Of a stretch of DNA of 60,537 nucleotides, positions 16,591-21,745 are shown piece after piece (the first letter of the stretch is position 1; every line of letters starts with the position of its first letter). Under the pieces are notes generated by a model. That model was not told the origin of the DNA. It saw nothing but the letters and a program-made list of their open reading frames with translations, and made no database searches. The stretch is from Brevinematia bacterium (GTDB lineage Bacteria > Spirochaetota > Brevinematia > DTOW01), in the NCBI GenBank assembly GCA_039630355.1, contig JBCNVF010000010.1, positions 1 through 60,537 of the forward strand. The letters run 5' to 3'. The position numbers and the translations under genes are program-made.

Positions 16591-16619
16591 TTGACAACAA
16601 TGTGGCTTTTCTGTATTAT
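16591..16619 (+). promoter_or_regulatory. strong promoter of the 21-residue-repeat operon
   Basis: TTGACA (16591-16596), 17-nt spacer, TATTAT (16614-16619). Predicted transcription start near 16626, just past the TTG of the longest frame, so the ATG at 16649 with GTAGAGG in front is the better translation start. Confidence 0.7.
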
Positions 16620-16648: not shown

Positions 16649-17572
16649 ATGATTAATAGGTACCTTTTCTCTTTAGGAACTGTGGATGGGTTTAATAGAT
16701 CGCTTAGGCATTTTTATAAGACCAGTGGGGTGATGAATGCAATAAAATCAGGTAGAAATCCAGCGGATTCAATAAATGAGTATTTGGATAATGGTGAAAT
16801 TGAGCCAATACAGATAATTCCAATATCCTATGCCTTGCTTGCTCAAAAGTTTGGCTATAGGTATAAATCTCACAATCTGTCTAGGGGAATAGATGACTTT
16901 GATAGTATTGTCAATACTGTTCTTTCGTGGGATAAGGTTGATATAGTTTTAATCTATCATAATCCTACTGTTGGGTGTATGGCTATAAATCCTAAGGTTA
17001 AAAGGCACTTTAGTAAGGTTGGCTTTCTAGTTAAGAATCAGCTTATTGTAGTTTACGTCAAGTGTATTTCCGACGATCCTAACAAAGTTGAGATAGAAGA
17101 AAATGCGATAAAGTTAATGATTGATCTTCTTGAGGGTAGGGATATAGGAGATGCGGATACTATTCTTAGGAGCAAGGATAGGAAAGTGAGAGCTGAGGAA
17201 GTAGTGACAAGTGAAGTTAAAGAAGAAATCAGTGATGAGTCATTTCAAGTTACCCCTAAATATGGTGTTGAGGTTACAAATGAGCTTTTCCACAATGGAA
17301 ATGTGGAGGCTTGGAAAAATATAATAGAGTCTTACAATGTTAAATATCCACACCTTAAGGTTATGGTTTTTCATGGTGGTGAGCAAATCCATGACCTTAA
17401 TGCGTTATTTAAGTGGGGTAAGGTCAAGCATGGGGATACAATATTTTTCTGTGTTGCTGGAAGGAACATAAAGGATGTAAGTAAGCTGAGAAAGTATCTC
17501 TTTGAGGGTGCTAGCAATAGATTTCATACCTTTTTGAAGAAGGATGTGAACAAACCACTTGAATTGTTCTAG
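16649..17572 (+). CDS. unrecognised protein, first gene of the repeat-protein unit
   Basis: Not recognised. A 307-aa soluble protein without signal peptide or membrane segment. The N-terminal half (FNRSLRHFYKTSGVMNAIKSG; VDIVLIYHNPTVGCMAINP; KNQLIVVYVKCIS) looks like a mixed alpha/beta domain with two buried beta strands. A charged Lys/Glu linker near residues 170-190 leads to a second alpha/beta part (LKVMVFHGGEQIHDLNALFKWGKV; DTIFFCVAGRNIKDVSKLRKYL). A longer frame starts at TTG 16625, but the promoter and the GTAGAGG site favour 16649. It lies 12 nt before the coiled-coil repeat gene, so the two products probably act together. Role unknown. Confidence 0.7.
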   Translation: MINRYLFSLGTVDGFNRSLRHFYKTSGVMNAIKSGRNPADSINEYLDNGEIEPIQIIPISYALLAQKFGYRYKSHNLSRGIDDFDSIVNTVLSWDKVDIVLIYHNPTVGCMAINPKVKRHFSKVGFLVKNQLIVVYVKCISDDPNKVEIEENAIKLMIDLLEGRDIGDADTILRSKDRKVRAEEVVTSEVKEEISDESFQVTPKYGVEVTNELFHNGNVEAWKNIIESYNVKYPHLKVMVFHGGEQIHDLNALFKWGKVKHGDTIFFCVAGRNIKDVSKLRKYLFEGASNRFHTFLKKDVNKPLELF

Positions 17573-17584
17573 GGGGTAGAATAT

Positions 17585-18907
17585 ATGGAAGAGGACATTG
17601 AGAGTCTTAAGAAACAGTTGGAGGAGAAAGATAGGATCATAAAGGATCTTGAGAAAATTGTGAGGGCTTATGAAGCTGTCTCGGAAATAAGTAGAAATGA
17701 GCTTTTAGACGCATATAAAACCATAGAGGCACAGGAGAGGGTTCAACTTTTGACGCAGTCTGAGATTAGAGAGAGGGATGAGATAATTGAGGCTGAGGAA
17801 AAAGTAATAGAAATGAGTGCTGAAGAGCTTAAGCAAGCGAAGAGAGAAATACTTGCGAGGGAGATTGTAGAGGAGCTTGCTAGGAAGGAACTGCTTGATA
17901 AGGATAAGGTTATAAAAGCTATGGAAATAGTGGCTGATATGATGACAAAGGATATAAAGGATAGAGACAAGATAATCCAGGCTTTTGAGGCTGCAGAGGA
18001 ATTAGCAAGGCAGGAGATTATGAGCCTGAAGAAGGAATCTGAGGCTAAGGAAAGTGTAATTGACCTTGCACAGAAAGAGAGAAAGGAAACGATAGATATA
18101 CTCAAAGCTTATGAAAGTCTTGAGGATTATGCAAGAATAGAGAAGGAGGAAATAATTAAGACGGCAAACTTTCTACTGGAAGTTTTTGTAAACTCTCTAA
18201 TACAGCTTGGACTTATTCCAAAATCTGAGGAGTCAAAGATAAGGACAGTTGCAAGGAACTTAGTTAGAGAGAAGTGGTATCTTGCCTCTCCTAAGGTTGG
18301 AAATATTGATCTCCCAACAGCTTTGAAAATAATAGAAGCTCATGAAATTATAGAGGAGCTTATGAGAAAAGAAAAGATTGAAATGGATAATATAGTCAAA
18401 GCTTATGAAATACTTGATGAAGTGAAAAGGAAGCAGTTTATTGAACTTTATAACATACTGTCCGCTTATGAGAATCTTCAGAGTTATATAATGAAAAATA
18501 GAGAATTTTTTGATAAAGTCATAAAGGCGTATGACAGTGTGCAAGAGCTTGAGAGAGAAGAGAAGATAACTATGGATAAGATTATAAAAGCTCATGAGAT
18601 TGTTGAGGAGTTAGCAAGGCAGGAGCTTATTGAAAAAGATAAGTTAAACTTGGCACATGAGGTTGTTGAGGATCTATCTAGAAAAGAACTACTTGAGAGG
18701 GATAGAATAATCCAAGCACATGAGATAGTAGAAGAATTAGCTAGGCGGGAAATGATACAACTTAGAGAACTTGCTAAAGCACATGAAGTGGTTGAAGAAC
18801 TAGCTAGAAGAGAGCTTATAGAAAGAGACAAGATAATTGATGCTTACGAGAAACTTTCGGAATACACTGCAGAGGAAATTAAGAAACTTAAAGAAAGGAA
18901 GGAATAA
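17585..18907 (+). CDS. coiled-coil protein of seventeen exact 21-residue repeats
   Basis: Not a family I can name. 440 aa, cytosolic, almost entirely helical and charged. The motif A-[aromatic/His/other]-E recurs with no indels every 21 residues: positions 28, 49, 70, 91, 112, 133, 154, 175, then 252, 273, 294, 315, 336, 357, 378, 399 and 420. Typical unit: HEIVEELARQELIEKDKL followed by three residues. The only break (residues about 196-245, containing FLLEVFVNSLIQLGLIP and KWYLASPKVGNIDLP) keeps heptad phase, since 252 minus 175 is 77, eleven heptads. Twenty-one residues are three heptads, so a long regular rod is expected. GGGGGT precedes the ATG. The stop codon abuts the HD-GYP gene on the other strand. 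Confidence 0.8.
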   Translation: MEEDIESLKKQLEEKDRIIKDLEKIVRAYEAVSEISRNELLDAYKTIEAQERVQLLTQSEIRERDEIIEAEEKVIEMSAEELKQAKREILAREIVEELARKELLDKDKVIKAMEIVADMMTKDIKDRDKIIQAFEAAEELARQEIMSLKKESEAKESVIDLAQKERKETIDILKAYESLEDYARIEKEEIIKTANFLLEVFVNSLIQLGLIPKSEESKIRTVARNLVREKWYLASPKVGNIDLPTALKIIEAHEIIEELMRKEKIEMDNIVKAYEILDEVKRKQFIELYNILSAYENLQSYIMKNREFFDKVIKAYDSVQELEREEKITMDKIIKAHEIVEELARQELIEKDKLNLAHEVVEDLSRKELLERDRIIQAHEIVEELARREMIQLRELAKAHEVVEELARRELIERDKIIDAYEKLSEYTAEEIKKLKERKE

Positions 18908-21745
18908 TCATTGTTCTTTATATTTTTCATATATTTCGTTAAACTTATGGTGTATTTCGGTAAAAGCTTGGAGTATGTCAGGATCAAAATGATGAGGTTT
19001 TGTTCTGTGGTTACCCTTTGTTATTATTTCTACAACCCTTTCATGGTCAAATGCGGGTTTATAGGTTCTTGGCGATCTCAAAGCATCGTATATATCTACT
19101 AAGTTTACTATTCTGGCACTTATTGGTGTTTTATCTTTTTCAAGTCCGTAGGGGTATCCACTACCGTCCCATTTTTCATGATGTCCTAAAGCTATGTCTC
19201 TAGCCATAATTAGCTTTTGGTGGTCTCCTAATATTAGAGCACCAGCTATGGTATGCTCTTTCATAATCTCGTACTCTTCTGGAGTTAGCGGGCCAGGTTT
19301 GCGAAGTATTTCTCTCGGTATCTTGAGTTTACCTATATCATGCATCTGAGAGGCATAGTATATTGAGTTAGAAAAATCTTCACTAAATCCCAAATAGCGA
19401 GATATGATTCTTGAGTATTCTCCAACTCTGTATATATGCATACCTGTTTCTTCGTCCATTTCTTCAGCTGCTCTTGCAAGAGATTGCATAGTGTAGATGA
19501 AAGCATTGTCCACTTCTTTTACTTCCTCGTACACTGCTTTTATTAGCAGATAGTTCACAAGTAATGATCTCATTAAATCTATGTCCCATGAGGAAATCTT
19601 AGAGAAAAAGTTGATTCCTATCAGAACTGAATCTTCTATTGAGATTGCTAGAAAGTTGTAGATCACATTTGATATATGGAGTATCTCTTTGGCAAAAGAT
19701 TTGGAAAATTCTGAAGGGGGAATTCCTTCAGTTACATGGTCGGACCACATCACCTTGTTTCTGCCAAACTTCTTTCTAGAGTAAAACTCTAGTGGAATAT
19801 TCAGAGAATCAACAAAAATTACTTGTCTTTCACGCAAAATTGCGAAAACCTTTGAATGTATGAATGTGTTGTTTATCTTACCTACAATCAAAAAGGAAGG
19901 GATATTGATATTCGGTTGGAGAAAGAGCTTGGATAGAATCTCAAACTCAATTTCGTCAAAAGAAGTGCTTTTATATCCTAGAATTTTACTAAGTAGAAGT
20001 GTAGAAGAGGAGCTAAGAGTTATAATACTCTTAAAGGTGTTTTCAATTTTTTTCCTACCCATCAAGCTGTAAGTGATAAAGGAGATAGTGTCATTGAGAT
20101 AGTGAAATTCGTTCTTGAAGAAGATTTGTAAGTCTGCAAGGGATTCTAGAAATTCTTTTGCACTGTTTTCATCGGCTTTGTAAAAGCCAATCACGCAGAA
20201 GATATTTCTTTTTAAGGGATCTGATTTTATATTCTTTATTAAGCTTATTCCAGCCTTATCGTCAACTTCATTATCGCAGATTACCATGTCTATATTTATT
20301 TTTTCTAAAAGCTTTAGAGCTTCGGCGAATGTATTCACACCATAGGTTTCGTAGTCATTCATTACTAATAGGGAGGTAATTGTCTGTTTCACACCTAGGT
20401 CTTTTACAAATAGTAGGACATTGTGGCGCAAGCCTTTAAAGAGGCCCTTTGTAATTGTAGCTTGAGTTTCTAAAAGGAGTAGGTGGAATATCTCTGAGAT
20501 AAAGGTAGTTGTGGATATGTTCATCTCAAATTTATCCTGGGTTGATATAGACACGATGAGCTTTAGGGTATATCCATAGGTTATTGGAATCACTATGTCA
20601 GCATCCAGATCATTAAGGATTCTTTGTAGTTCGGTATCATGGGGTGTAAAGAATCTGTTGGATTTTGAGGTTATTGTGTTTAGCTCCTCCGCTGATATAC
20701 CTAGGTGCTTGATTCTAATAATAGTATTTCCCTTTTCGTCAATAAGGAGTACTGATTTTAGTGTTTTTTCAGTTTCGTTGAAAGTGAATACTTCTATAGT
20801 ATTTTTACCTAAAAATTTTTCTACCGATGTGTGGAGTTTATCTACTATGGTTCCTATCGTTAGGGAGGGAATTTCACTGTCTTTTATATTGCTCAGATAA
20901 TGCTTTATTACGCTAATTGTTATATCATTAACCTTTCTTGTTATCAACTTATGGGATGTTATGCTAAGTAAAGTGGAGAGTAAAAACACAAAGCCAGTGA
21001 TTGGTAGAATTGAAGCTTGTAATAATTCTGAGTTAATCAGTGAAACGATGAAGATGTATAAACTTGGTAAGATGATAAATGTTATACTAAGAAATGATGC
21101 GAAGGTTTTTAACTTTGTCTCTTGAGCTTTTGCGAAAGGGGAGATCAATGAGATTGCAGAATAAAGTAAGGGAGTTAGAGTTAAAGGTAGGGTTATATCT
21201 TGTACATTTTTACTGCCGTTAATCAGTAGTAGAGACACAGAGAGTAGTAATGGTATTGAAATGCTGGTTTCTTCCAAAATTTTGATTGTTGTGATTTCCC
21301 TTCTGAGTGTGAGAAATGATATTACTGCAAAAGATAAGATGATATTGATGAAGGAGGTAGTACCAAATCCTATTTTTTCTGATCCTTTTGTGATAAGAAT
21401 GGCCATAAGTGCTATAGAAGAAAACAATACTGGAAGAAGAATAAACAGCTTTGGATGACTGAGGATATTAGACTTTCCCTTTTTGTTGTCAAGGTATTCT
21501 ACGATCTTGAGGTTTACGATTATTGATGAGAGAAAGAGAAGCAGGAGGATAAAGGTTGTCATGAACATTAAGTCCAAGGCTAGGAGTTGGAACAGGTTTG
21601 CTAGGAAAGAACTGAGAAGTACTACTGATAACAATGTCCACTGAATGAGATTGATAGGTTTTTCTTTCTCTGTTAGAGTAACAAATAAAGAAAATGATAG
21701 TGAAGTGAAAAGTAAAAGTGAGTATAGAAGGTGTGTTTCTATCAT
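18908..21745 (-). CDS. membrane HD-GYP domain protein, probable cyclic-di-GMP phosphodiesterase
   Basis: A 945-aa signalling protein. Residues 1-270 hold about eight hydrophobic helices forming a membrane sensor region. Next comes a GAF-like stretch (VEKFLGKNTIEVFTFNETEKTL onward), then a degenerate receiver-like domain (LLVMNDYETYGVNTFAEALKLL; MVICDNEVDDKAGISLIKNI) that keeps the Asp-containing VICD strand. A further sensor-like region precedes the C-terminal HD-GYP domain (last ~190 residues) with GMHIYRVGEYS, HDIGKLKIP, HHEKWDGSGYP and ARIVNLVDIYDAL all intact. It probably degrades cyclic di-GMP in response to a membrane or intracellular cue. A GAGG ribosome site precedes the ATG. It is convergent and contiguous with the 21-residue-repeat gene. 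Confidence 0.9.
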   Translation of the reverse strand: MIETHLLYSLLLFTSLSFSLFVTLTEKEKPINLIQWTLLSVVLLSSFLANLFQLLALDLMFMTTFILLLLFLSSIIVNLKIVEYLDNKKGKSNILSHPKLFILLPVLFSSIALMAILITKGSEKIGFGTTSFINIILSFAVISFLTLRREITTIKILEETSISIPLLLSVSLLLINGSKNVQDITLPLTLTPLLYSAISLISPFAKAQETKLKTFASFLSITFIILPSLYIFIVSLINSELLQASILPITGFVFLLSTLLSITSHKLITRKVNDITISVIKHYLSNIKDSEIPSLTIGTIVDKLHTSVEKFLGKNTIEVFTFNETEKTLKSVLLIDEKGNTIIRIKHLGISAEELNTITSKSNRFFTPHDTELQRILNDLDADIVIPITYGYTLKLIVSISTQDKFEMNISTTTFISEIFHLLLLETQATITKGLFKGLRHNVLLFVKDLGVKQTITSLLVMNDYETYGVNTFAEALKLLEKINIDMVICDNEVDDKAGISLIKNIKSDPLKRNIFCVIGFYKADENSAKEFLESLADLQIFFKNEFHYLNDTISFITYSLMGRKKIENTFKSIITLSSSSTLLLSKILGYKSTSFDEIEFEILSKLFLQPNINIPSFLIVGKINNTFIHSKVFAILRERQVIFVDSLNIPLEFYSRKKFGRNKVMWSDHVTEGIPPSEFSKSFAKEILHISNVIYNFLAISIEDSVLIGINFFSKISSWDIDLMRSLLVNYLLIKAVYEEVKEVDNAFIYTMQSLARAAEEMDEETGMHIYRVGEYSRIISRYLGFSEDFSNSIYYASQMHDIGKLKIPREILRKPGPLTPEEYEIMKEHTIAGALILGDHQKLIMARDIALGHHEKWDGSGYPYGLEKDKTPISARIVNLVDIYDALRSPRTYKPAFDHERVVEIITKGNHRTKPHHFDPDILQAFTEIHHKFNEIYEKYKEQ

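Follow-up and report, generated by a model that had tools for sequence, protein, structure and literature searches.

Organization of the Locus

The window, a 60,537-nt stretch of a contig from a Brevinematia bacterium (Spirochaetota; GenBank JBCNVF010000010.1), carries two consecutive plus-strand genes, encoding a 307-aa protein and a repetitive rod protein (Table 1). The rod gene starts 12 nt after the 307-aa gene, and a Shine-Dalgarno-like sequence 5' of its ATG overlaps the stop codon of the upstream gene. A sigma-70-like sequence with an 11/12 fit lies about 30 nt 5' of the first gene, in agreement with the close spacing and the promoter described in an earlier note on this DNA; it is a consensus match, which by itself is not evidence of function. 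A gene that reads as an HD-GYP-like regulator (18908-21745, minus strand) and the rod gene meet tail to tail without a single base between them.

The search for orthologous pairs that the earlier note had proposed detected the same two genes in three further species (G001-G003). All four congeneric species thus have the pair, with a gap of 11-14 nt and with differing flanks where these are seen. The pairing is limited to this genus; no other examined locus has it.

Table 1. Features of the rod locus (positions in the window)
Feature	Position	Strand	Basis
Sigma-70-like promoter match, TTGACA-17-TATTAT	16591..16619	+	Consensus scan, 11/12
CfpA-partner protein, 307 aa	16649..17572	+	Full-length orthologues, mostly 40-48% identical; conserved neighbours
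C-terminal domain of the CfpA partner (roughly residues 200-307; HPr-like fold predicted); His215 codon at 17291-17293	17246..17569	+	AlphaFold2, Foldseek
Shine-Dalgarno-like sequence AGGGGGTAG	17571..17579	+	Direct reading
Rod gene (440 aa; 17 repeat units, each of 21 residues)	17585..18907	+	ORF translation; orthologues in G001-G003
N-terminal helix ahead of unit 1, residues 1-24	17585..17656	+	Translation
Repeat block 1, 8 units, residues 25-192	17657..18160	+	Periodicity analysis
Non-repeat insert with Pro and Gly, residues 193-248	18161..18328	+	Unit placement
Repeat block 2, 9 units, residues 249-440	18329..18904	+	Periodicity analysis

Repeat Array of the Rod

The rod consists of two repeat blocks separated by an insert, and, as in related rods, a charged helix opens the protein ahead of the first unit. 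Ala occupies all 17 anchor positions (residues 28 to 175 and 252 to 420, at a spacing of 21 within each block), and residue identity is 0.289 at lag 21 and 0.286 at lag 42, whereas the highest identity in shuffled rod sequences (n = 2000) is 0.159 at any lag from 5 to 60. These values bear out the earlier description of 17 units, exactly 21 residues apart, in blocks of eight and nine. The A-x-E anchor claimed for every unit is present at 16 sites, the exception being residue 315 (A-Y-D); off-register A-x-E also occurs at residues 79, 136, 137 and 429. When units are placed with a 21-residue PSSM (threshold 5.0), the seed set of which includes the window rod's own units, 16 of the 17 exceed the threshold, all in register. 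The steps along the rod are all 21 or 42, except for a 77-residue step across the insert.

Identity between units averages only 35% (range, 14-76%); the units are therefore old. The rods of the other three congeneric species are 73-80% identical to that of the window, with gap-free arrays. Codon differences among congeners fall at 49-56% of third positions and 9-12% of second positions; dN ranges from 0.12 to 0.19, and dS has reached saturation for almost all congeneric pairs. The rod is thus a real gene under strong purifying selection.

Coiled-Coil Periodicity and Central Interruption

In both blocks of the rod, hydrophobicity has its best period at exactly 3.50 residues (power 10.1 and 11.1), the hydrophobic periodicity looked for as a sign of coiled coils and the same period as in a left-handed coiled coil. 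With unit positions 1, 8 and 15 as a and positions 4, 11 and 18 as d, heptads 1 and 2 have a hydrophobic core, whereas heptad 3 has polar residues at a and d. When the units are averaged, 21% of the power falls to the 3.5 harmonic (p = 0.13 versus column shuffling), which is not dominant; the core is therefore no plain heptad stripe. An AlphaFold2 model of the rod, based on four sequences, is almost wholly helical with low confidence (mean pLDDT 54, pTM 0.20), and so neither proves nor disproves an extended rod. The extended helical rod postulated earlier is upheld by the periodicity and, at low confidence, by the helical model.

The 77-residue step had been taken to keep the coiled-coil phase over eleven heptads. 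About 56 of these residues lie outside the repeat and five of them are Gly or Pro. In same-class rods of other families, the main interruption contains 11-31 extra residues and has steps of 32, 33, 34 or 52 residues, none of which is a multiple of seven. The argument for a heptad phase kept across the interruption fails on this evidence, and it is most likely a coincidence that 77 is a multiple of seven.

A 21-Residue Repeat Family in Spirochaetota

A search with the rod finds matches in 32 of 60 genomes, that of the window included; rods of the same class match at E-values down to 1e-108, and residues 245-426 are 47-56% identical to rods from other families of the class. A 63-residue profile built from 28 repeat segments finds matches in 109 of 247 genomes (44%) drawn from across the phylum. 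The family is defined in this analysis by tandem 21-residue units with the consensus IIKAHEIVEELARKELIEKDK and exact-21 steps: among unit steps shorter than 40 residues, 215 of 223 are exactly 21 family-wide by PSSM placement. The window rod conforms to this consensus, and its membership in the family is nearly certain. The earlier statement that the rod matches no family was accordingly abandoned in favour of a phylum-wide repeat family that is also found with signalling output domains.

The family is undescribed, and no Pfam or NCBIfam model covers the repeat. Searches of Pfam, NCBIfam and PDB sequences with the rod returned nothing or chance-level matches only, and a literature search combining '21-residue repeat' with spirochaete terms found no description of it. 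The check outside Spirochaetota covered four SAR324-type genomes with the CfpA module (see below), in which no repeat protein was found.

Members of the family occur as stand-alone rods of 379-536 aa, as short coils of about 100-210 aa and as fusions. In the fusions, the repeat supplies the N-terminal portion of histidine kinases, of GGDEF cyclases and of one SpoIIE phosphatase. Pfam searches identify HATPase_c with or without GAF in two of them (L098, L101), GGDEF in another (L109) and SpoIIE in a fourth (L038); further proteins are of the same kinase type as judged by reading their sequences (L043, L099, L100, L102-L108, L116), and two more resemble additional GGDEF fusions (L152, L153). Histidine kinases and GGDEF cyclases act as dimers, and the presence of the repeat at the head of such dimeric enzyme types therefore fits an oligomerising stalk.

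In many proteins of about 300 aa, an N-terminal domain of about 120 aa precedes 21-residue-like repeats (L044-L046, L049, L050, L113). This domain has zero matches in Pfam or PDB, and no support was found for reading it as a receiver domain. Rods of other families of the class adjoin conserved genes of their own, namely QueA-like and DUF3108-like genes (L027, L028, L029, L033) or a lysA-like gene (L034, L035, L039), and a flgF-like gene is also among their neighbours; these labels derive from N-terminal sequence, not from family searches.

The Upstream Gene and its Linkage to CfpA

Full-length orthologues of the 307-aa protein are present in many Spirochaetota and in SAR324/Lambdaproteobacteria. 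Outside the genus of the window, cfpA is directly upstream of the orthologue in 44 of the 49 loci whose flank is long enough to show it. A gene for a PPDK-like protein is directly downstream in 46 of 59 loci, both counts including a few repeat loci of the same genome. Among 60 genomes, 19 have CfpA together with the upstream gene and 40 have neither, while a single genome, which is 82% complete, has CfpA alone, so that the partner co-occurs with CfpA in 19/20 genomes versus 0/40 lacking CfpA (Fisher p ~1e-14, uncorrected for relatedness). CfpA was identified with the NCBIfam model NF040882 (883.7 bits versus a cut-off of 500); the rod does not match this model. By orthology and co-occurrence, the upstream gene is a conserved CfpA-adjacent hypothetical gene. 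What had been called an unknown two-gene operon thus combines a CfpA partner conserved across spirochaetes with a member of a phylum-wide repeat family.

In Treponema denticola, TDE0842 (cfpA), TDE0843 (conserved hypothetical) and TDE0844 (PPDK) were repressed together in co-incubation experiments (PMC3914990). The 307-aa gene corresponds to TDE0843 by gene position only. In the genus of the window, the CfpA module is dispersed and its middle gene is paired with the rod; all four species (G000-G003) carry a full-length CfpA elsewhere in the genome. In G000, the genome of the window, CfpA is encoded at C94:4617-6575 and the PPDK-like protein at C113:5159-7747.

Variations of this gene order are seen in other lineages. 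In Leptospirales loci (L066, L073, L075-L080, L082, L087-L090), the partner gene is followed by genes for proteins of about 240 aa and about 400 aa; at L066 the former has a weak DUF6602 match and the latter a VWA domain, and the other loci read similarly. At five Leptospirales loci, a PPDK-like gene lies about 5 kb farther downstream. Outside Spirochaetota, a module of CfpA, HPr-like partner and PPDK-like genes occurs on contigs of SAR324/Lambdaproteobacteria and on related ones (L074, L083, L084, L085), with CfpA downstream at L083 and L085.

A Predicted HPr-Like Domain and the PPDK-Like Protein

AlphaFold2 yields a good model of the 307-aa protein (mean pLDDT 88.7, pTM 0.83). In a Foldseek search with this model, HPr chains ranked top by probability (7x7h_B: probability 0.98, TM 0.72 by target, rmsd 3.1, E 0.095), with no match reaching E 0.001. 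The modelled order of strands and helices in residues 200-307 agrees with that of HPr. His215 is invariant in 35/35 partner sequences and in the model adjoins the first helix (residues 216-232) on its N-terminal side, the place at which HPr bears its phosphorylated His. The domain has no match in Pfam, including HPr (PF00381), and sequence homology to HPr was not supported, at an hhalign probability of 0.8% against 17 spirochaete HPr sequences, fold comparison alone pointing to HPr. Profile matches of the domain to chains of oomycete effectors and of folliculin were put down to chance. The domain is HPr-like in its predicted fold and is not a member of PTS-HPr. A true HPr gene is located directly after a gene that reads as HPr kinase on another contig of G000 (L118, L129; G000:C61).

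Alignment with the genome's own canonical paralogue shows that the PPDK-like protein has lost motifs of the ATP site (SVRSGA is replaced by KLIISPD, and GGKGAG by GVRGER). It retains GGYASHAPVVAR, which contains the phospho-His, and, in spirochaetes, also GLCGEHGA of the PEP site; these residue roles are assumed from established knowledge of PPDK. Such features suggest that a PEP-dependent relay might run from the PPDK-like protein to His215. In the two SAR324-type copies that were aligned (L084, L085), the PEP motif is changed to GLYGNYAS and GLCGSHAS, respectively, which argues against a relay as a universal function of the module. A more extended scheme, in which the whole CfpA module would be a PEP-driven phosphorelay on the cytoskeleton, leading from the PPDK-like protein via the partner His to control of the CfpA filament, with the rod as a genus-specific scaffold or effector, is regarded as quite improbable.

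Possible Roles of the Rod

Several observations bear on the role of the rod. Elsewhere its repeat is an enzyme stalk; no further domain was recognised in the rod; and the rod is the sole repeat protein of its genome, as searches of G000-G003 detect no second one at E 0.01, all matches lying within the rod itself. These features argue for a self-associating scaffold, and the conserved pairing with the gene that usually follows cfpA points to the cytoplasmic-filament module. On balance, it is somewhat probable that the rod is a self-associating coiled-coil scaffold that has been recruited to the CfpA cytoplasmic-filament module. The rod would be a passive, parallel coiled-coil oligomer, with a length of about 50-60 nm at full extension. 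In the genus it is translated right after the 307-aa protein, and the two probably act together, possibly by direct contact. The rod would then most likely associate with the filament, serving the CfpA module as spacer, crosslinker or anchor. For the cytoskeletal scaffold proposed in the earlier note, this provides indirect support through the link of the upstream gene to CfpA, while the scaffold role itself is inferred.

The distribution of the proteins runs counter to a filament role: most rod-bearing genomes are without CfpA, no repeat protein was seen in 11 of the 20 genomes that carry CfpA, and the four SAR324-type genomes with the CfpA module likewise have none. The restriction of the rod-partner pairing to one genus and the weak model of the rod also count against it. 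Dependence of the rod on CfpA was rejected on the basis of this distribution. Rods and CfpA are in general mutually independent in their occurrence, so that recruitment of the rod to the filament module would be specific to this lineage. The position of the rod next to the usual neighbour of CfpA had also raised the idea that it replaces CfpA, which was rejected because G000-G003 all retain full-length CfpA.

A second explanation is that rods and repeat-bearing kinases, cyclases and phosphatases co-assemble in the cytoplasm through their like repeats as a signalling scaffold, the link to CfpA being incidental. This accords with the position of the repeat before GAF-histidine kinase, GGDEF and SpoIIE modules and after a separate N-terminal domain in the proteins of about 300 aa, and also with the long rod and repeat-bearing kinases found together within single genomes in families f3 and f4 of the class. 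However, G006 and G008, like G000-G003, carry the rod only, so that co-assembly would lack a partner there: as the sole repeat protein, the rod has nothing with which to form hetero-assemblies of the kinase type. Such a signalling role is therefore considered unlikely, while retaining some weight.

It is rather improbable that the rod polymerises alone into an intermediate-filament-like structure, i.e., a cytoplasmic filament apart from CfpA, in the manner of crescentin or FilP. A long three-heptad array with a central interruption, a very regular charged helix and the apparent absence of a membrane segment or signal peptide from the sequence are what such a filament protein might have; but the rod has no sequence match among solved structures, Pfam or NCBIfam, array length differs within its class (379-489 aa), and the use of the repeat as an enzyme stalk indicates that polymerising is not its general property. 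That the rod is an unrelated house-keeping scaffold merely sharing a transcript with the CfpA partner, as the unrelated neighbours of other-family rods (QueA-like, DUF3108-like, lysA-like or flgF-like) might suggest, is very unlikely given that the pair is kept at 11-14 nt in 4/4 species despite differing flanks.

Comparison With Known Systems

In relation to the T. denticola module TDE0842-0844, the 307-aa gene is by position the middle gene, which is conserved across the phylum, and G000 has all three genes; in contrast, the genes are dispersed in G000-G003 and the middle gene is followed by the 21-residue rod, not by CfpA. As predicted, the partner domain would resemble HPr in fold, in the order of secondary-structure elements and in the place of its invariant His before the first helix, but it reads HNGN where HPr has its HARP motif, there is no profile similarity, and true HPr has its own gene elsewhere in the genome.

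Crescentin, FilP and Leptospira Scc share with the window rod a long alpha-helical rod and a heptad-type periodicity. Unlike crescentin and FilP, the window rod is built of tandem units of strictly 21 residues that bear an A-[HY]-E motif, and it has no PDB sequence match; its repeat is so far seen only in Spirochaetota and is also fused to enzymes. A further parallel is offered by the coiled-coil stalks or signalling helices of histidine kinases and diguanylate cyclases; in related spirochaetes, the same 21-residue units precede GAF-HATPase, GGDEF or SpoIIE modules. The window rod differs in lacking an output domain, in its much larger number of units (17) and in its central insert.

CfpA ribbons have long been known in treponemes, and the literature reached on them names no protein partners. 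Gene order and co-occurrence suggest two such partners, of which one has a predicted HPr-like domain and the other is a PPDK relative without its ATP site. The rod would be an accessory coiled coil added to this system in one lineage, built from a strict 21-residue repeat that occurs in 44% of the sampled Spirochaetota genomes, where rods share it with kinases, cyclases and a phosphatase.
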